The notes beneath the pieces are model-generated. The model was not told the origin of the DNA, searched no databases, and worked only from the letters and a program-made list of their open reading frames with translations. Source: Mogibacterium sp. (GTDB lineage Bacteria; Bacillota; Clostridia; Peptostreptococcales; Anaerovoracaceae). From it: DNA of 37,116 nucleotides. Shown in pieces: positions 14,159 to 27,332 of the stretch. Each line of letters opens with the position of its first letter. Position 1 is the first letter of the stretch. A program made the translations under genes and the position numbers. The DNA lies in the NCBI GenBank assembly GCA_017432075.1, contig JAFRJV010000121.1, positions 1-37,116 of the forward strand, read 5' to 3'.

Positions 14159-14608
14159 ATGGAAGTCATTTTGAAACAGGATGTCAAGGGAACAGGTAAA
14201 GCCGGTCAGATAGTAAAGGTAAGCGACGGTTACGCACGCAACAAGCTGATACCGGGAGGACTCGCAGTTGAAGCGACTCCGGCCAACAAGAAGGCGATCG
14301 AGAGAGAAAAGGCAAAGGCCAAAGAGAAATACGAGGCGGATAAGGCCGCAGCTCTTGATCTTGCAAATCAGCTTTCGGATAAGATCGTCGTAGTAAAGAC
14401 AAAGGTCGGCGAAAACGGAAGACTTTTCGGCGCAATCACTTCCAAGGAAGTAGCCGCTGCGATCACTGAGCAGACAGGCATCGAAGTCGACAAGAGAAAG
14501 ATCATTCTCGACAAGCCTATCAAGGAGACAGGCGTTGAGACACTTGAGATCAAGCTGTTCCAGGATATAAAAGCCAAGGTGGTCGTCAAGATCGAAGGCG
14601 GAAAGTAA
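14159..14608 (+). CDS. rplI: Large ribosomal subunit protein bL9
   Basis: bL9 binds 23S rRNA near the L1 stalk and helps keep the reading frame. The 149 residues begin [19 protein letters not shown] and continue [20 protein letters not shown], the conserved N-terminal domain. A long Lys/Ala-rich connecting helix (about 42-75) leads to the C-terminal domain with [14 protein letters not shown] and [19 protein letters not shown] precedes the ATG. The gap from gdpP is 24 nt and dnaB starts 2 nt after the stop, so this is the conserved gdpP-rplI-dnaB operon. Confidence 0.97.
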
Positions 14609-14610
14609 AA

Positions 14611-15969
14611 ATGGACGAAGAAAGAAAAGACGTACTGCTTCCGCCGGTAGATATAGACGCCGAGAAAGCAGTGCTGGGTTCCATGCTCAAAAACCAGGAT
14701 GCCAGAGCCGATGTCAGCGCGATGCTCAGAGCTGAGGATTTCTACCTCAAGGAGCATCAGGAGATATACAGGACCATGCTCGACATGGATCAGAGAGGCA
14801 CAGGCATCGATATAACAACGGTGTACTCCGCCCTGAAGCAGAGAAAGACCGCCGACATGGTAGGCGGTATCACATATCTGAGCAGGCTGATGGACGAGGC
14901 CATCGTTCCTTCGAATGCCCGCTATTACGCTGAGACCGTCTCGGACAAGTCCAAGATGAGACAGCTGATAACAGAGGCAGAGTCAATAAGGGATGCAGCG
15001 TATTCGTCCGAACTCCCGCCTGAAGACATTCTCGACAACGCTGAGCAGCGCATCCTCGAGATCGCGCACAAAGCCCAGCGCAGCAGCTATGTAGATATCA
15101 ACGATGTGCTTTTCGAGAACATCAAACAGCTGCAGGAACTGGAGAAGAACGGCAACGACAAGGGCATCCCGACAGGCTTCAGGGATGTCGACAAGATCCT
15201 CGGCGGATTCCAGAAGACAGACCTTATTATCCTTGCTGCCAGACCGGGTGTCGGCAAGACGGCATGGGCCCTCAACGTAGCGGAACATGCGGCTTCGATC
15301 GGCAAAAAGGTGATGGTGTTCAGCCTTGAGATGGCCAACACCCAGCTCGGCGAGAGACTGCTCTCCATGACTTCGAGCGTGCCTCTGGAGCACATCCACA
15401 AGGGCGAGATCTCGATGGAAGAATGGGAGGATCTTTCCGCAGCACAGGACAGCTTTTACGGATACGACATGGTCATCGACGAATCGTCAGTGATCACGCC
15501 GGTAGAGATGAAAAACAAATGCCGCCGCTTCAAGCAGGAGAAGGGCGACCTGGATCTGGTCGTCATCGACTATCTCCAGCTGATGAGCATGGGCGGATAC
15601 AGAATAGAACAGCGTGAAAAAGAGATCGCGGCCATCACAAGATCGATCAAGATCATGGCCAAGGAGCTCGAATGTGCGGTAATACTGCTGTCGCAGCTCT
15701 CCAGAGGACCTGAGCAGCGCGGAGGCGATCACATGCCGAAGCTGTCTGACCTCAGAGACTCCGGTGCGATCGAGCAGGACGCAGACGTTGTCATCTTCCT
15801 CAAGAGAGATGATTACTACAGCTCCGAAGATGAAAGAGCAAACATTGACGAGAGCACAGGCCTCACCTGCGCGGTCAATATTGCCAAGCACAGAAACGGT
15901 CCGGTCGGAATAGCAAATCTGACATGGATCCCAAGATACGTAAAATTCGGCAACATGGCGAGAGAGTAA
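14611..15969 (+). CDS. dnaB: Replicative DNA helicase DnaB
   Basis: DnaB (called DnaC in Bacillus) is the hexameric replication-fork helicase. The 452 residues have the helical N-terminal domain (PPVDIDAEKAVLGSML ... SNARYYAETV) and the RecA-like motor. Walker A is ARPGVGKTAWA (210-220), then FSLEMANTQLGERL, Walker B LVVIDYLQLM (316-325), the LLSQLSRGPEQR segment and DLRDSGAIEQDADVV. The C-terminal KHRNGPVG arginine-finger region is also present. No intein is present, although this family often carries one. The reading frame starts 2 nt after rplI. The next gene, a DnaD-DnaI_N-like protein, probably acts as its loader or partner. Confidence 0.97.
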   Translation: MDEERKDVLLPPVDIDAEKAVLGSMLKNQDARADVSAMLRAEDFYLKEHQEIYRTMLDMDQRGTGIDITTVYSALKQRKTADMVGGITYLSRLMDEAIVPSNARYYAETVSDKSKMRQLITEAESIRDAAYSSELPPEDILDNAEQRILEIAHKAQRSSYVDINDVLFENIKQLQELEKNGNDKGIPTGFRDVDKILGGFQKTDLIILAARPGVGKTAWALNVAEHAASIGKKVMVFSLEMANTQLGERLLSMTSSVPLEHIHKGEISMEEWEDLSAAQDSFYGYDMVIDESSVITPVEMKNKCRRFKQEKGDLDLVVIDYLQLMSMGGYRIEQREKEIAAITRSIKIMAKELECAVILLSQLSRGPEQRGGDHMPKLSDLRDSGAIEQDADVVIFLKRDDYYSSEDERANIDESTGLTCAVNIAKHRNGPVGIANLTWIPRYVKFGNMARE

Positions 15970-15974
15970 GAGCT

Positions 15975-17363
15975 ATGGCAAAGGTCAAACTGTCGGTAGA
16001 CAAAGGAAGGGACATCTTCCTTCACAGAACGAAGATCGAGAACCTGTTTATAAGTGAGTATCTCCCGGATGCACCGGGCGATTATGTTAAGGTGTTCCTG
16101 TTTGGCCTGATGCACGCTCAGTATGACCTGACGCCTAACAGGAGTGAACTCGCAAAGCTGCTGAAGCTCAGCGAGGAAGAGATCGCTGAGGCCTGGATCT
16201 ACTGGGAATCAAGAGGTCTGGTGCGTATCGTTCGTGAAAAAGACAGCAACAACGAAGAAGTAAGCCATGTCATCTTTCTTTCGAAGATAGAGGAGCTTTA
16301 CGGAAAGCTTGCCGAGACACAGCCGGCTGCTGCGGTTACAGAGGAACCTGCAGAGGAAGACCTGCCGCTCTATGTCTCGATCGACGATATGGACTTCGAT
16401 GAAGTCATAAACAGCAAGCTCGTCGACAGAAAGCTGCGTGAGCTTTATGAGAAATTCCAGATCACCACTGGAAGAACGATCTCCAGGCAGGAGGTCTCCA
16501 AGATCGAGGACGCGATAAAGGTATATGGCATAGAGCCGGAGATCTTCGACTTCGCGATCGACTATTGCGCCGATCTTCAGAAGTACAGCGTCGACTATAT
16601 CTTTAAAGTCGCACTGAGATGGACCGAAGAAGGCTGCCGTACGGTCGAGGAAGCGAAGCGGCTGCTTGACAAACACAGCCGCAGGAATGACTGCTACAGG
16701 CAGGTCTTCAAGGCGCTTGGCTTTAACAGGTTACCTGCGCCGATAGACCGTGAGATCATGGACAGATGGTTCGACGGGCTGAATTGCTCACTCGCGGAGG
16801 TGCTTGATGCATGTTCTGCGGCTGCAGGCATCAGAGAGCCGAACCTAAAGTATGTCAACAAGGTCATAGAGAACCGCAGGCTTGAGAAAGGCGGAGTAAA
16901 CACCAGACTCCCGAAAGACAGTGCTCAGAATGGCTCCGCAGAGTCAGGCGCTGATGAAGGAAGTCCGGTAAGCCGCAAAGTCCTGGCGGATTATTACGAA
17001 TTCATAAGGAATGAAGATGAGAAAGCGCGCGAGGCGCGCATAGTGGAAGTCCTCAGAAAAGTGCCTGAGATGAAGGCGGTCTTCGAAGCGGAAAGCAGCG
17101 TCAACTCAAAGATGCTCTCGCTCAGACCGGGTGCTGATAATCTCGATGCACGACAGAGGCTGAGGGCTGAAAGAATAGCGATAGAGGAAAACAGAAAACA
17201 GCTCCTGACCGGTAACGGTTTCCCAAGCGACTATCTGACAAGAAAGTACAGATGCAGTATTTGCAAGGATACCGGATACACGGATGAGGGCATGGTGTGC
17301 AGCTGCTGCAGGGAACGCGCTGCGGAAGCATACAAATGGCACACAGATAAAGAAAAGGCGTAA
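15975..17363 (+). CDS. DnaD-like primosome protein fused to a DnaI N-terminal (helicase-binding, Zn) domain, no AAA+ domain
   Basis: DnaD-family proteins remodel DNA and bring the helicase to origins; DnaI loads DnaB through an AAA+ domain behind a zinc-binding N-terminal domain. This 462-residue protein has a winged-helix N-terminus (about 30-105, GDYVKVFLFGLMHAQY). Two DnaD C-terminal-type helical repeats follow at about 150-232 and 238-302. Residues about 335-462 look like the DnaI N-terminal domain: NGFPSDYLTRKYRCSICKDT with Cys427/Cys430, then VCSCC with Cys442/Cys444. The chain stops 17 residues after that zinc site, just where an AAA+ domain would begin. The next gene is an unrelated M23 protein. 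The start is the ATG at 15975, 5 nt after dnaB; a longer frame from 15924 overlaps dnaB. Domain calls come from motif recognition and have not been confirmed by a profile search. Confidence 0.8.
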   Translation: MAKVKLSVDKGRDIFLHRTKIENLFISEYLPDAPGDYVKVFLFGLMHAQYDLTPNRSELAKLLKLSEEEIAEAWIYWESRGLVRIVREKDSNNEEVSHVIFLSKIEELYGKLAETQPAAAVTEEPAEEDLPLYVSIDDMDFDEVINSKLVDRKLRELYEKFQITTGRTISRQEVSKIEDAIKVYGIEPEIFDFAIDYCADLQKYSVDYIFKVALRWTEEGCRTVEEAKRLLDKHSRRNDCYRQVFKALGFNRLPAPIDREIMDRWFDGLNCSLAEVLDACSAAAGIREPNLKYVNKVIENRRLEKGGVNTRLPKDSAQNGSAESGADEGSPVSRKVLADYYEFIRNEDEKAREARIVEVLRKVPEMKAVFEAESSVNSKMLSLRPGADNLDARQRLRAERIAIEENRKQLLTGNGFPSDYLTRKYRCSICKDTGYTDEGMVCSCCRERAAEAYKWHTDKEKA

Positions 17364-19898
17364 ATGAAGTTTATTGATCCCGAAGAAGTAAAGAAAAATA
17401 CCGAAGAAGAATCAAAGCCCGCTGAGGTCTATTCCGAAATAGCGGAGCCCGAAATGCCGGAGATAGACGACGCTCAGATAAGAGCGTTGGCTTTGGCATA
17501 CGCCAGATACCTCAAGGACCATAATCTTGCTCCGGGAGATGCCACAAATGTGGAGCCGGAGGAGATCGGAGTATCTGTCGATGGACTCGATGTCGAACTG
17601 GATATAGAGGTCAGCGAGGATGAAGAGGCTCCGGAACAGGAAGACGAACTCTTTGAAAACGTAGAGATATCGGTCGATGAGCCCGATGAAGAGGCTGCAG
17701 AAGAGGAACTCTTTGAAGAAACACCGGCTGAAGAGCCTGTAGAAGAAGAAATCCCGGAAGCCGATGAAACTATTGAGGAACCGGAAGAAATTTTCGAAGA
17801 GATAACTGAAGAAGAATCCGTCGAAGAGGAAGAACTTCCGGAAGCCGAGAAAGAGTCTGATGAACCGGAGGAGGCTCCGGCAGAAGAATCCGTTGAAGAA
17901 ACGATAGAGGAATCTGTTGAAGAGCAGGCTGAGGAAATAACAGAAGATCTCGAAGAAAAAGTTCCAACCGAAGAGCCGGCAGAGGAAACCTCTGCAGAAG
18001 AGGAAATCCCAGAAACCGTTGAAAAAGCTGAGGACCAGGAAGAAATCTTCGAAGAAGTAACTGAAGAAGAATCTGCCGAAGAAGAATATCCAGCTGAGGA
18101 GTCGATCGAGGAAACTCCTGCTGAAGACGAACCTGTAGAAGAGGAAGCCTTAGAAGAAACTCCAGTCGAATCGATAGAAGAAACAACCGAGGAAGAATCT
18201 GACGAATCGGAAGAGACTCCGACTGAAGAATCTGTTGAAGAAACGACGGAAGAATCTGCTGAAAAGCAGAATGATGAAACCGCGGATGCTCCGGCAAAGA
18301 AGAAATCAAAGGAAGATCCTAAGAAAAAGGCGATAAGAAAAGCAAGAGAACGGGCTGCTAAGAAGAAGCTCCGGAAAAGGCTCGAAGCCAAGGAAAAGAA
18401 TAAAGAGAAATTCCTTAAAGGAGGAAATGTTCCGCTTGCAGGCATAACAAATCTTCACGACAAAATACAGGACGGCATCGACGGAGCCTTCGTCACTGTC
18501 GGCAAACAGGCCGTCAGCGGAGCTCATAAGATATCTTCGACATATACTCAGACCCGCAAAGGAATCGCTATAGCCGTTCTGATCACAGGATTGCTGGCAG
18601 CCGGTCTTCTGGTCGTATTCGACATATTCACAGTCTATGAATATGCGTATAACGGCAAGGTTCTCGGATATGTCAAGAATCAGGAGGAGGTCACTGACGT
18701 TCTCGATGTCGCGGGCAGACAGCTCACATATAACAGCAGCACCGAAGCGGACGTAAAGTTTGTGGCAAACCAGAACGTAACGTTCAACCCGGTAGACGGC
18801 AGGGGCAAGAGTACAGACGACTCGGATACGGTCGTCAACAAGCTCATTTACATGACGGATATCGAGACCGAGGCTTACGCTGTTTATGACGGCGACAAAG
18901 CGGTGGCCATCGTGAAGGACCAGAATGATGCCGACAACCTTCTTCTCATGACGAAGGCCGATCTGTCGGTTCCGGATAAAGGAATGGAACTGATTTCTTC
19001 AGAATTCCTCAATGAACTCTCAGTAAAGCCGGTCAACGTTCTGCTCGGAAGCGTTCAGAGCAATGCAGCTGCACAGGATCAGATGACAAACGGCGGAGAG
19101 ATGCATACATTCCACATCGTTGAGGAGGGCGAGACTGTTCACAGCCTTGCGACGCTGTTCGGAGTTGAGGACTTCGATATTTACAACGAAGACAACAGCG
19201 AACCGGTCACCGAAATCGAAACAGGTGACAGAGTCTGCATCAGAAGCGTTGTCTCTCCGGTACAGGTCGAAATGGTCGAAAAGGGAAAGATAAAGGAAGT
19301 TATCGAGTACGAGACCATCAAGAAAGAGAGCGACGAGTACTACAAGGGAGACAGCTTCCTCGAGCAGGAAGGCCAGAACGGAATAGAGATCTTCGAGGGC
19401 TATATCACTAAGGTTTCAGGCGAAGAAACTGAAAGAAAAGCTACAGCCAAACCGGAGGTTCTCCGCAAGAAGAAAAACAAGATCATCGTTGTCGGCACAG
19501 CAGAAAGACCGAAGACCGCAGCGACCGGAACATTCATTGTGCCGCTGGATCATTACACGATAACGTCCGAGTGGGGCGGCAGATGGGGCCGTATGCACGA
19601 AGGTATGGACCTTGCTGCACCAACAGGTACACCGATACACGCCTCCGATGGAGGAAGGATCATTAAGGCCAATTACTGGTCCGGCCACGGACTGTGCGTG
19701 GAGGTCGATCACGGCAACGGAGTTATCACAAGATACTCGCACTGCAGCGCTGTATTTGTAAGCATCGGAGACCTGGTATATCAGGGACAGCATATCGCTA
19801 ACGTAGGTAACACCGGACACAGTTTCGGAAGCCACTGTCACTTTGAAGTAAGAGTTAACGGTTCATCGCGGAACCCGAGAAACTACATTAACCCATAG
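17364..19898 (+). CDS. Membrane-anchored LysM-G5-M23 metallopeptidase with long acidic cytoplasmic arm
   Basis: This 844-residue protein begins at the base after the previous stop. Residues about 60-310 are Glu/Pro/Thr/Ser-rich, with an internal duplication (EEIFEEITEEES at 141-152, EEIFEEVTEEES at 226-237). A Lys/Arg-rich block follows at about 312-352. One transmembrane helix spans about 401-423, so the acidic and basic parts should be cytoplasmic. Outside are a stalk, a LysM-like domain (about 581-626, HIVEEGETVHSLATLFG), a G5-like domain (about 630-712) and the M23 peptidase. The zinc and catalytic residues are His745 and Asp749 in HEGMD and His824/His826 in SHCHFE. The family cleaves peptidoglycan cross-bridges. 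Its direct coupling to replication genes and the presence of divIC next suggest a role in growth or division; that is inference. Confidence 0.88.
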   Translation: MKFIDPEEVKKNTEEESKPAEVYSEIAEPEMPEIDDAQIRALALAYARYLKDHNLAPGDATNVEPEEIGVSVDGLDVELDIEVSEDEEAPEQEDELFENVEISVDEPDEEAAEEELFEETPAEEPVEEEIPEADETIEEPEEIFEEITEEESVEEEELPEAEKESDEPEEAPAEESVEETIEESVEEQAEEITEDLEEKVPTEEPAEETSAEEEIPETVEKAEDQEEIFEEVTEEESAEEEYPAEESIEETPAEDEPVEEEALEETPVESIEETTEEESDESEETPTEESVEETTEESAEKQNDETADAPAKKKSKEDPKKKAIRKARERAAKKKLRKRLEAKEKNKEKFLKGGNVPLAGITNLHDKIQDGIDGAFVTVGKQAVSGAHKISSTYTQTRKGIAIAVLITGLLAAGLLVVFDIFTVYEYAYNGKVLGYVKNQEEVTDVLDVAGRQLTYNSSTEADVKFVANQNVTFNPVDGRGKSTDDSDTVVNKLIYMTDIETEAYAVYDGDKAVAIVKDQNDADNLLLMTKADLSVPDKGMELISSEFLNELSVKPVNVLLGSVQSNAAAQDQMTNGGEMHTFHIVEEGETVHSLATLFGVEDFDIYNEDNSEPVTEIETGDRVCIRSVVSPVQVEMVEKGKIKEVIEYETIKKESDEYYKGDSFLEQEGQNGIEIFEGYITKVSGEETERKATAKPEVLRKKKNKIIVVGTAERPKTAATGTFIVPLDHYTITSEWGGRWGRMHEGMDLAAPTGTPIHASDGGRIIKANYWSGHGLCVEVDHGNGVITRYSHCSAVFVSIGDLVYQGQHIANVGNTGHSFGSHCHFEVRVNGSSRNPRNYINP

Positions 19899-25148: not shown

Positions 25149-27332
25149 ATGGCAAAAATAGACTACAACAAAATTTTTATAAAGGGAGCCTGCCCTACCA
25201 CGATTGGCGGACAGGCTGTAATGGAAGGCGTCATGATGCAGGGCCCTGACAGGGTCGCCCTTGCGATGCGCCTGCCTTCGGGCGAGCTCTACCTCAAGAC
25301 GAAGCTCAAGAAGAAGCAGTCCCCTGCTCTGAAGATCCCTTTCGTCAGGGGCGTCGTTTCTTTTGTGAACGCACTCGTCGGGGGCATGGGTACGCTGATG
25401 GAGTCAGCGGACATTCTCGAGACCTACGCTCCGGAGGAGTATGCCGAGGAGGAAGGAAAACTCGAAGCCTGGATCAATAAAAAATTCGGCGAGAAGGCCG
25501 CATGGAATTTCCTGATGACCACTGCCCTGCTCTTTGCGGTGGCGGTCTCGGTCGTCTTCTTCATTATCCTGCCTACATGGGTAGTGAATTTCCTGGGCAA
25601 GTGGGTACAGAGCGCGATCGTGCTCAACCTGGTAGAAGGCATACTCAGAATACTGATGTTTGTCGGCTACGTTGCTGCGATACGCAGAATGAGCGACATA
25701 AAGACGCTGTTCCAGTACCACGGAGCCGAGCACAAATCGATACACTGCTATGAGAACGACAGGGTGCTCTGCCCTGAAAATGCGGAGGAATTCTACACAC
25801 TGCATCCGAGGTGCGGCACCAGCTTCCTGGTGTTCGTGCTTATCATAAGCCTGCTCCTCTTCAGTTTTCTCGGCTGGCCAAACCTTGCGATGAGGATACT
25901 TTCAAGGATCCTTCTGGTCCCGGTGATCGCGTCCATAAGCTTCGAGCTTCTGAGATGGGCCGGCAGATCCAACGGCAAGATCGTGCGGATCCTCAGCTGG
26001 CCGGGGCTTCAGCTCCAGAGACTGACGACTGCGGAACCAAACAGAGACCAGCTCGAAGTTGCGCTGCTTTCGCTTAAGGCGGTTCTTGTGGATCCGGGCG
26101 TTCCTGAGATCAACAGCTTCGTCGATAAGGACGGCAATGTGGTGAGGTCGAAGGCCGAGGAGAAGGAGATCGAGCGCGAGATGGAGGCCTGGGCGGCGGA
26201 CGTTGAAGCTCATACCGAAGCAAACAAGAAAGCTGTAGCTGCAGTGATCGACGATTTTACAAGGATCGAAGAGCGCACGGTCTTTGAAGACCCTGAAAAC
26301 GGTGCGAACGATGAAGATATCGCCAGCGCCATAGACTTCCTTGACGGGCTCGATACCGATGGCTACACGATAGTTGCGGCTGATGAAACGGACGGCCGCA
26401 CGCTCGTAAGGGCGATCGCAGACAGAGAAGCGATCGAGGCAAAAGCCAGAACGCTCGCACGCAGATATACGAAAGATATAAAGACCTACGAGAACGCGCT
26501 CAGCTGGGGCAAGGCTGCGCTCAGCATGCTCCCGAACGGAAAAAATGAAGCGCGTATGATCATGTCGTACGCGACGGGACTCGGCACGGCCGAGCTCATC
26601 ACCAGGGCCAAGGAGCTCATGCGCGACGATGACTTCGAGGAATTCCAGAAGAGGATCTATCTGAGGATCGAAGGCGTGCCGCTCCAGTACATAATAGGCG
26701 TGCAGGAGTTCATGGGACTGCAGTTCAGAGTCAACAGGTCAGTGCTGATCCCGCGTCTGGATACCGAGATACTGGTTGAAAATGTGATCGGGACCATAGA
26801 AAAAATGAACCGCAGAAATCCTGAAGTGCTCGACCTTTGCACGGGAAGCGGGGCTATCGGTATCAGCATAGCGGCCAAGGTCCCTGATGCGATCGTCACC
26901 ATGACGGATGTGTCCGAAGAGGCGTTGCACACGGCTATGGGCAATGCCGGACTCAATGAGGTAAACCGCCGCTGCATATTCCTGCTCGGCAACATGTTTG
27001 AGGCGCTGCCTGATGACAAGCATTATGACGTCATCGTCTGCAATCCGCCGTACATCCCGAGCGATGTCATAGACACGCTCGATGTAGAGGTGAAGGATCA
27101 CGAGCCGCGCATGGCTCTCGACGGAGGCAGGGACGGACTCGACTATTACAGGATAATAGCGGACAAGGCAGATCTGCATCTCAAGACAGGCGGAGTGCTT
27201 GCCCTGGAGATCGGTGCCGAACAGGCAGATGACGTAAAGAAACTGCTTGAAAAGGCCGGCACATACGAAGGTATCAGAGTGATACGCGATCTCGCGCAGC
27301 TCGATCGCGTCATCATTGCTACACGCAAATAA
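25149..27332 (+). CDS. Fusion of YqhQ (DUF1385) membrane protein and release-factor glutamine methyltransferase PrmC
   Basis: One 727-residue frame joins two proteins that are usually separate neighbours. Residues about 1-315 match the DUF1385/YqhQ family: GGQAVMEGVMMQGP (20-33), KIPFVRGVVSF, four or more hydrophobic helices (about 120-142, 157-178, 224-242, 250-268), HGAEHK (191-196) and HPRCGTSF. Residues about 315-445 are an acidic linker. Residues about 446-727 match PrmC: VPLQYIIG, VLIPRLDTE, SAM loop LDLCTGSGAIG (561-571), catalytic NPPYIP (632-637) and LALEIGAEQ. PrmC methylates the GGQ glutamine of release factors. No internal stop or frameshift is present, so the methyltransferase would be tethered to the membrane unless processed. 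The usual next gene, prfA, is missing. Internal starts for a separate PrmC cannot be ruled out. Confidence 0.9.
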   Translation: MAKIDYNKIFIKGACPTTIGGQAVMEGVMMQGPDRVALAMRLPSGELYLKTKLKKKQSPALKIPFVRGVVSFVNALVGGMGTLMESADILETYAPEEYAEEEGKLEAWINKKFGEKAAWNFLMTTALLFAVAVSVVFFIILPTWVVNFLGKWVQSAIVLNLVEGILRILMFVGYVAAIRRMSDIKTLFQYHGAEHKSIHCYENDRVLCPENAEEFYTLHPRCGTSFLVFVLIISLLLFSFLGWPNLAMRILSRILLVPVIASISFELLRWAGRSNGKIVRILSWPGLQLQRLTTAEPNRDQLEVALLSLKAVLVDPGVPEINSFVDKDGNVVRSKAEEKEIEREMEAWAADVEAHTEANKKAVAAVIDDFTRIEERTVFEDPENGANDEDIASAIDFLDGLDTDGYTIVAADETDGRTLVRAIADREAIEAKARTLARRYTKDIKTYENALSWGKAALSMLPNGKNEARMIMSYATGLGTAELITRAKELMRDDDFEEFQKRIYLRIEGVPLQYIIGVQEFMGLQFRVNRSVLIPRLDTEILVENVIGTIEKMNRRNPEVLDLCTGSGAIGISIAAKVPDAIVTMTDVSEEALHTAMGNAGLNEVNRRCIFLLGNMFEALPDDKHYDVIVCNPPYIPSDVIDTLDVEVKDHEPRMALDGGRDGLDYYRIIADKADLHLKTGGVLALEIGAEQADDVKKLLEKAGTYEGIRVIRDLAQLDRVIIATRK

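Follow-up and report, generated by a model that had tools for sequence, protein, structure and literature searches.

A DnaD-type protein ending in the N-domain of a helicase loader, without the loader's ATPase, in the family Anaerovoracaceae

The window, that is, the whole stretch of 37,116 nucleotides that was analysed, belongs to a draft genome of Mogibacterium sp. that is 83% complete. It contains a cluster in which the gene of the replicative helicase is followed by that of a hybrid protein, and the genes and protein parts considered here are the following (coordinates refer to the window):

14159..14608, + strand: rplI (ribosomal protein L9), upstream gene of the cluster, 149 aa; Ribosomal_L9_N and Ribosomal_L9_C
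14611..15969, + strand: replicative helicase DnaB, the presumed client, 452 aa; DnaB and DnaB_C
15975..17363, + strand: DnaD / loader-N-domain hybrid, 462 aa; Pfam, NCBIfam and family alignment
16041..16277, + strand: winged-helix (DDBH1-like) part of the hybrid, residues 23-101; AlphaFold2 model, weak Foldseek match to 2v79
16395..16628, + strand: first DnaB_2/DDBH2 helical repeat, residues 141-218; Pfam DnaB_2, model, 2zc2
16644..16889, + strand: second DDBH2 repeat, residues 224-305; two DnaB_2 stretches, model
16890..16973, + strand: low-confidence linker, residues 306-333; pLDDT below 50 at 308-328
16974..17360, + strand: loader N-terminal (presumed helicase-binding) domain, residues 334-462; NF005304, hhalign; three long helices, Cys4 knuckle and C-terminal helix
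17253..17306, + strand: presumed zinc site, Cys427, Cys430, Cys442 and Cys444 (CxxC...CxC); motif conservation
17364..19898, + strand: next gene, outside the system; acidic stretch, G5 and M23 peptidase domains

The open reading frame at 15975..17363 that the first-pass annotation had proposed was confirmed (462 residues, beginning with MAKVKLSV). The longest frame that opens with ATG is slightly larger (15924-17363, 479 aa), but the start was set at 15975 and not at 15924, because the family alignment begins at that same position. The end of the dnaB helicase gene and the start of the hybrid are separated by 5 bases, and in 53 of the 69 loci with enough upstream sequence a helicase gene of the same strand ends no more than 600 bases upstream of the fusion. 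The gene after the hybrid had been described as encoding a cell-wall protein, and its G5 and M23 domains agree with that description; they are preceded by a long acidic stretch rich in Glu and Pro.

The larger part of the hybrid is of the DnaD type. Compared with Pfam (E <= 1), the window protein matches DnaB_2 in two stretches (E 2.1e-19; best stretch 159-228), and beyond this family there are just chance-level matches and no AAA+ domain. DnaB_2 was found in all 80 fusions kept for analysis, and the NCBIfam models DnaD_dom and NF005304 both match the 80 of them. The AlphaFold2 model, built on the 80-sequence alignment (mean pLDDT 85), has the winged-helix order of elements at residues 23-101, helical repeats at 141-305 and a disordered linker at approximately 308-328, after which the chain forms three long helices, a knuckle of cysteines and one more helix (block means 86-98). 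Foldseek searches with the first part of the model gave 9a5c (DnaD) at E 3.5e-6 and weak matches to 5wtn, 2zc2 and 2v79 (E 0.003 to 0.044): 2v79, the N-domain of Bacillus subtilis DnaD, falls on the winged helix (E 0.036), and 2zc2 on the first helical repeat (TM 0.80 of the target, E 0.025). According to these comparisons of the model, the first part appears related to DnaD and to the DnaB co-loader, and the two DnaD-type helical repeats that had been read from the sequence find support in both the DnaB_2 stretches and the model.

The C-terminal part has a different relationship. NF005304 (PRK06835 “ATP-binding protein”) matches residues 337-451 of the window protein (E 3.8e-19, 69 bits), and the match is confined to positions 9-124 of the 330 of the profile; the full-length cut-off of this model, 215 bits, is the loader cut-off referred to below. 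When the C-terminal segments of 47 fusions were compared with 18 complete loaders by hhalign, they aligned to loader positions 6-128 with a probability of 99.9 (E 6e-37). Pfam AAA is present in 18/18 of these true loaders, and in the first of them the AAA-type matches lie at approximately 181-312; since the alignment ends well before that region, the hybrid lacks all of the loader beyond position 128 or so. In keeping with this, no AAA family appears among the 25 Pfam families listed, of 83, for the 80 fusions. On profile comparison, the C-terminal part is the N-domain of a clostridial PRK06835-type AAA+ loader from which the ATPase is missing; modelled alone, segment 334-462 reaches a pLDDT of 95.8. 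The first-pass annotation had spoken of a DnaI-type zinc domain without an AAA+ ATPase. The lack of the ATPase and the relation to a loader N-domain both stand, in that residues 334-462 are related to such a domain, but the type has to be corrected to PRK06835; after comparison of this part with the PDB, a kinship in fold to the solved N-domain of B. subtilis DnaI is tentative at most.

The CxxC...CxC motif is present in 79/79 complete fusions (the 80th locus, L086, has no complete ORF, and the fusion parts are visible there in a six-frame scan). The four cysteines, Pro364 and Asp432 are identical in 47/47 fusions and 18/18 loaders of the combined alignment, and the Cys4 site is presumed to bind zinc. 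The fusions do not conserve Tyr131, which 17/18 loaders have in the joint that leads to the AAA+ part. In 22 close pairs, many of them with dS near or above 1, dN/dS (NG86) was computable for the N-domain in 15, with values of 0.03-0.20, and in 7 it was not; for the DnaD part it is 0.04-0.12 in 13 pairs. These values indicate that the fused N-domain is under purifying selection, and its higher range implies that it is somewhat less constrained than the DnaD part.

The hybrid is a family trait and not an assembly artefact. The scan of contigs confirmed at least 548 relatives, from which the 80 were kept, and the fusion profile (E 1e-8 or better) matches 114/119 sampled genomes, in 87/91 genera, of the Anaerovoracaceae, apparently the family labelled f1 in the scans: the fusion occupies the same contig places in G330 and G359 of f1 as in the genomes of Bacilliculturomica and Sinanaerobacter. 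Most of the genomes compared are drafts, and all 67 of the good ones (>=90% complete, <=5% contamination) match; the five family genomes in which the match was not found are 60-89% complete. The match extends as far as the N-domain within a single contig in 112 of the 114 genomes, and in G361 and G176 (the latter one of the 67) it is split between contigs; a stop lies inside the match in six genomes (G381, G223, G333, G135, G373 and G334). Within the genus of the window, the N-domain (NF005304) is found among the matches listed in 33/35 genomes, the copy of G002 having an internal stop. The matches listed for G011 (68% complete) include no N-domain, and G021 (92% complete, 7% contaminated) has as its best loader-model match one of 2.9e-4, which corresponds to neither fusion nor loader. 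Named isolates with the fusion belong to Anaerovorax, Bacilliculturomica, Sinanaerobacter and Emergencia, all of them Anaerovoracaceae of the order Peptostreptococcales, which is also the order of C. difficile. Conservation in related genomes had been singled out from the beginning as a point to verify, together with the danger of a frameshift hiding the AAA+ part; the fusion is kept across the family, and no frameshift hides the ATPase, because the same short protein recurs.

An intact dnaI elsewhere in the genome, which the first-pass annotation had also contemplated, did not appear in the genomes searched. Matches over the loader cut-off were found neither in the draft genome of the window (83% complete) nor in any of 16 family genomes hand-picked mostly for completeness, and in the order scan (297 genomes) the cut-off was passed by 0/112 family genomes, whose best loader-model E-values lie between 2.6e-15 and 5.2e-36, and by 0/3 genomes of family f9. 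Outside these two fused families, 171/182 genomes of the order pass it; of the 11 that do not (no match in G084, G100, G129, G212, G215 and G227; weak in G075, G082, G200, G204 and G287), seven are less than 90% complete. A six-frame scan with an AAA+ profile comprising the loader after approximately residue 139, a border that was the analyst's choice, covered 1.15 Mb, made up of the window and of 80 related loci. A single 913-aa frame of L123, Clp-like to judge by its length, accounts for the two hits obtained, and the loader part was found in 12/12 control loci.

In six of the 16 chosen genomes (G005, G101, G236, G312, G391 and G394, the genome with the Emergencia timonensis locus), two of which are single-contig, DnaC-like AAA+ matches are limited to a DnaA-sized frame. 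Apart from that frame and the fusion, the matches in these genomes are to further ATPase frames, large or short, plus in G236 a weak loader-model match (4.1e-5) at positions 11-90. The other ten genomes show DnaC-like or weaker AAA+ matches, and the neighbourhoods examined cover one AAA+ gene in each of six of them (L277-L282; G202, G234, G310 and G392 lie outside this set). Each of the six genes stands beside a phage- or plasmid-type replication gene: the neighbours match PHROGs or Pfam families of phage DnaD-like loaders, RepA_N or replication initiators, and a recombinase (L277), a tape-measure gene (L279) and a PcfJ gene (L282) are found nearby. These results weaken the earlier alternative in which the ATPase acts in trans. 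Next to the phage-type AAA+ gene of Anaerovorax odorimutans DSM 5092 there is a 140-aa ORF (L279:6197-6619) with a weak match to the loader N-domain (E 3.7e-5), which is perhaps part of a split phage loader.

The ATP-free loader DciA (PF05258), whose search had been proposed as well, is present in 0/119 family genomes and does not figure in the list of families that the window protein matches at E <= 1. It was matched in 1/60 relatives, the same-genus draft G006; this match (L042, G006:C33:203-463) lies near a contig end of a 78% complete draft and may be contamination or a real DciA.

The way in which the hybrid could have arisen is suggested by its relatives. The statement that a dnaD gene and a separate AAA+ loader gene are usual in Clostridia holds: 324/393 genomes of the class scan pass the loader cut-off, and in 23/23 outgroup loci of the tree the loader ORF comes immediately after that of dnaD. 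In other families (e.g., G507, G471 and G407), the fusion profile gives a single match that starts in dnaD, crosses one stop and extends into the loader frame. Given this adjacency and the matches that span one stop, little would be needed for the two genes to fuse and the 3' part to be lost. A tree built from the dnaD and N-domain alignments joined together unites f1 and f9 in one group (100/99). The proposed course is that dnaD and the AAA+ loader gene were ancestrally neighbours, as they still are in relatives, and that in the ancestor of Anaerovoracaceae and its sister family f9 the two genes would have become one reading frame, with loss of the ATPase part.

Judging from the sequences, similar fusions exist in at least two other families of the class. 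ATPase-less fusions were found in 4/4 genomes examined of f44 (L234-L237) and, read as ORFs, in G568, G584 and G713 of f71, a family in which loci L242, L261 and L274 have a DnaD-type protein that ends in the N-domain without an AAA+ part; also in f71, the N-domain match of G657 falls in a 615-aa frame interrupted by stops, and G552 has a DnaD-type ORF with no detected N-domain. The case of f15 is doubtful: G477 has a weak N-domain match (E 2e-6) at the end of a DnaD-type ORF, locus L238 is likewise weak and G615 has a weak match in a 617-aa frame, while G397 and several other genomes of this family have loader matches in the AAA+ range or better (1e-39 to 1e-58). In the set that covers the further fused families, none of the 17 genomes examined reaches the loader cut-off. 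Three fused groups are separate in the tree, and tests are compatible with one clade. It is a tentative proposal, somewhat short of an even chance and made less likely by the evidence from f15, that the ATPase was lost after fusion to DnaD more than once in Clostridia (in Anaerovoracaceae and f9, in f44, and in f71 with perhaps parts of f15), which would add a further class of loaders, ATPase-free and tethered to the initiator.

Other arrangements were observed in the class. Families f47, f86, f90 and some of f61 have weak loader matches alone; three f47 genomes carry a divergent separate loader (L241, L243 and L244), f86 (L240) has a DnaD-type ORF without the N-domain and f90 gave no match. 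Loci L216-L221, L231 and L232 (families f13, f46, f53 and f64) encode DnaD-type proteins of approximately 500-635 aa with extra DnaD-profile stretches, and in a 714-aa ORF (L215:4177-6321) the DnaD part begins at residue 406, the first 400 residues being unexplained.

The hybrid gene probably encodes a helicase loader without ATPase, in which a presumed helicase-binding domain is tethered to the DnaD part. The helicase-binding role of the PRK06835 N-domain is carried over by analogy from DnaI and DnaC; in B. subtilis, DnaI interacts with the helicase through its N-terminal zinc domain and offers its AAA+ part to the DnaB co-loader as docking site (PMC13326638). In the mechanism that we propose, DnaA would recruit the DnaD part, which would bind single strands of the origin, as may be supposed from B. 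subtilis DnaD, while the C-terminal zinc domain would hold the DnaB helicase and load it, opening its ring or keeping it open by analogy with the isolated helicase-binding domain of DnaC in vitro. The ring would then close on the strand offered by the attached DnaD part, delivery would proceed without an ATP cycle of the loader, and release would come about through competition, perhaps with primase. The covalent link would take the place of the docking of the DnaB co-loader on the AAA+ domain of DnaI, and the locking ATPase would be dispensed with. Published in vitro work on DnaC and on C. difficile makes such a loader plausible: the isolated helicase-binding domain of DnaC loads DnaB at approximately half the wild-type level (PMC8213410), and Walker mutants of the C. 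difficile loader still deliver the helicase; the suggestion made there is that binding or hydrolysis of ATP is dispensable for delivery and that ATP use “locks” the helicase (PMC5204125).

The main rival is recruitment without ring opening, in which the tethered domain brings DnaB to the DnaD-covered origin and the helicase loads itself, by assembly of the ring from smaller oligomers on single strands or driven by primase, so that the hybrid is a landing platform. The conserved parts of the hybrid fit this role equally well, and helicase (self) loading with primase as activator is described for C. difficile (PMC5204125). However, the whole N-domain and not a mere peptide is under purifying selection, with invariant cysteines, and in E. 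coli little DnaB is associated with ssDNA when the loader is missing (PMC8213410); recruitment alone is rather unlikely.

An ATPase supplied in trans by an AAA+ protein encoded elsewhere is quite improbable. The candidates would be DnaA, which is present in the genome of the window, and a domesticated DnaC-like protein. DnaA-sized frames match the loader model in the genomes searched and 10/16 of the chosen ones have DnaC-like or weaker AAA+ matches; against it stand the 6/16 (two of them single-contig) with no DnaC-like match besides the DnaA-sized frame, the phage- or plasmid-type neighbours of the AAA+ genes of six of the other ten, and the loss of conservation of Tyr131 (17/18 loaders) in the joint that precedes the AAA+ part. 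The least probable reading is that the N-domain was repurposed, e.g., to let DnaD dimerise or bind DNA, with another factor loading the helicase. We infer the tie between domain and helicase in these bacteria, which leaves room for such a change; the alternative ATP-free loader DciA, not found in the 119 family genomes, has been counted on the same side. Nevertheless, the majority residue is that of true loaders at the Cys4 site, at Pro364 and at many further positions, and the fusion gene usually adjoins that of the helicase (53/69 loci).

Considered as an ATPase-free loader, the hybrid can be compared with four known systems. It shares with the PRK06835-type AAA+ loader of Clostridia, to which CD3654 of C. 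difficile (DnaI/DnaC class) is taken to belong, the N-terminal domain (hhalign E 6e-37), the Cys4 site and the relation to a dnaD-like gene, after which that loader is placed; it differs in lacking the AAA+ ATPase and in having the N-domain at the C-terminal end of a DnaD-type protein. The DnaD-like primosomal protein CD3653, with the order DDBH1-DDBH2-DDBH2 (PMC5204125), resembles it in the winged helix and the two DnaB_2 repeats, but the hybrid has the loader N-domain in addition. DciA would be similar in loading DnaB without an ATPase, although it is unrelated to the hybrid and was matched in 0/119 family genomes and in 1/60 relatives. Finally, the isolated domain of DnaC is also a loader N-domain that puts DnaB on ssDNA without an ATPase, at about half the level of full DnaC (PMC8213410), but it is an artificial truncation that is not fused to an initiator, and the N-domains of DnaI and DnaC are reported not to be homologous to each other (PMC3791466).

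The loader and DnaD parts are already known, and what is new is their arrangement without the defining AAA+ domain. Among the papers listed by full-text searches of the open-licence literature, none has a title that reports a family-wide, ATPase-free loader/DnaD fusion, and the available part of Brezellec et al. does not mention one. If the proposal is true, the AAA+ engine of the DnaC/DnaI loaders is dispensable in nature once the helicase-binding domain is fixed to a DnaD-type protein, and a family from which evolution removed the ATPase constitutes a natural experiment on why loaders burn ATP, so that the question becomes directly testable. Routine annotation would mask the hybrid, as the NCBIfam label over cut-off is that of a DnaD domain protein alone. 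The window contains another fusion, at 25149-27332, where DUF1385 (63-313) and a PrmC-type methyltransferase (PrmC_N 450-517, MTS 553-635) are encoded by one 727-aa ORF.
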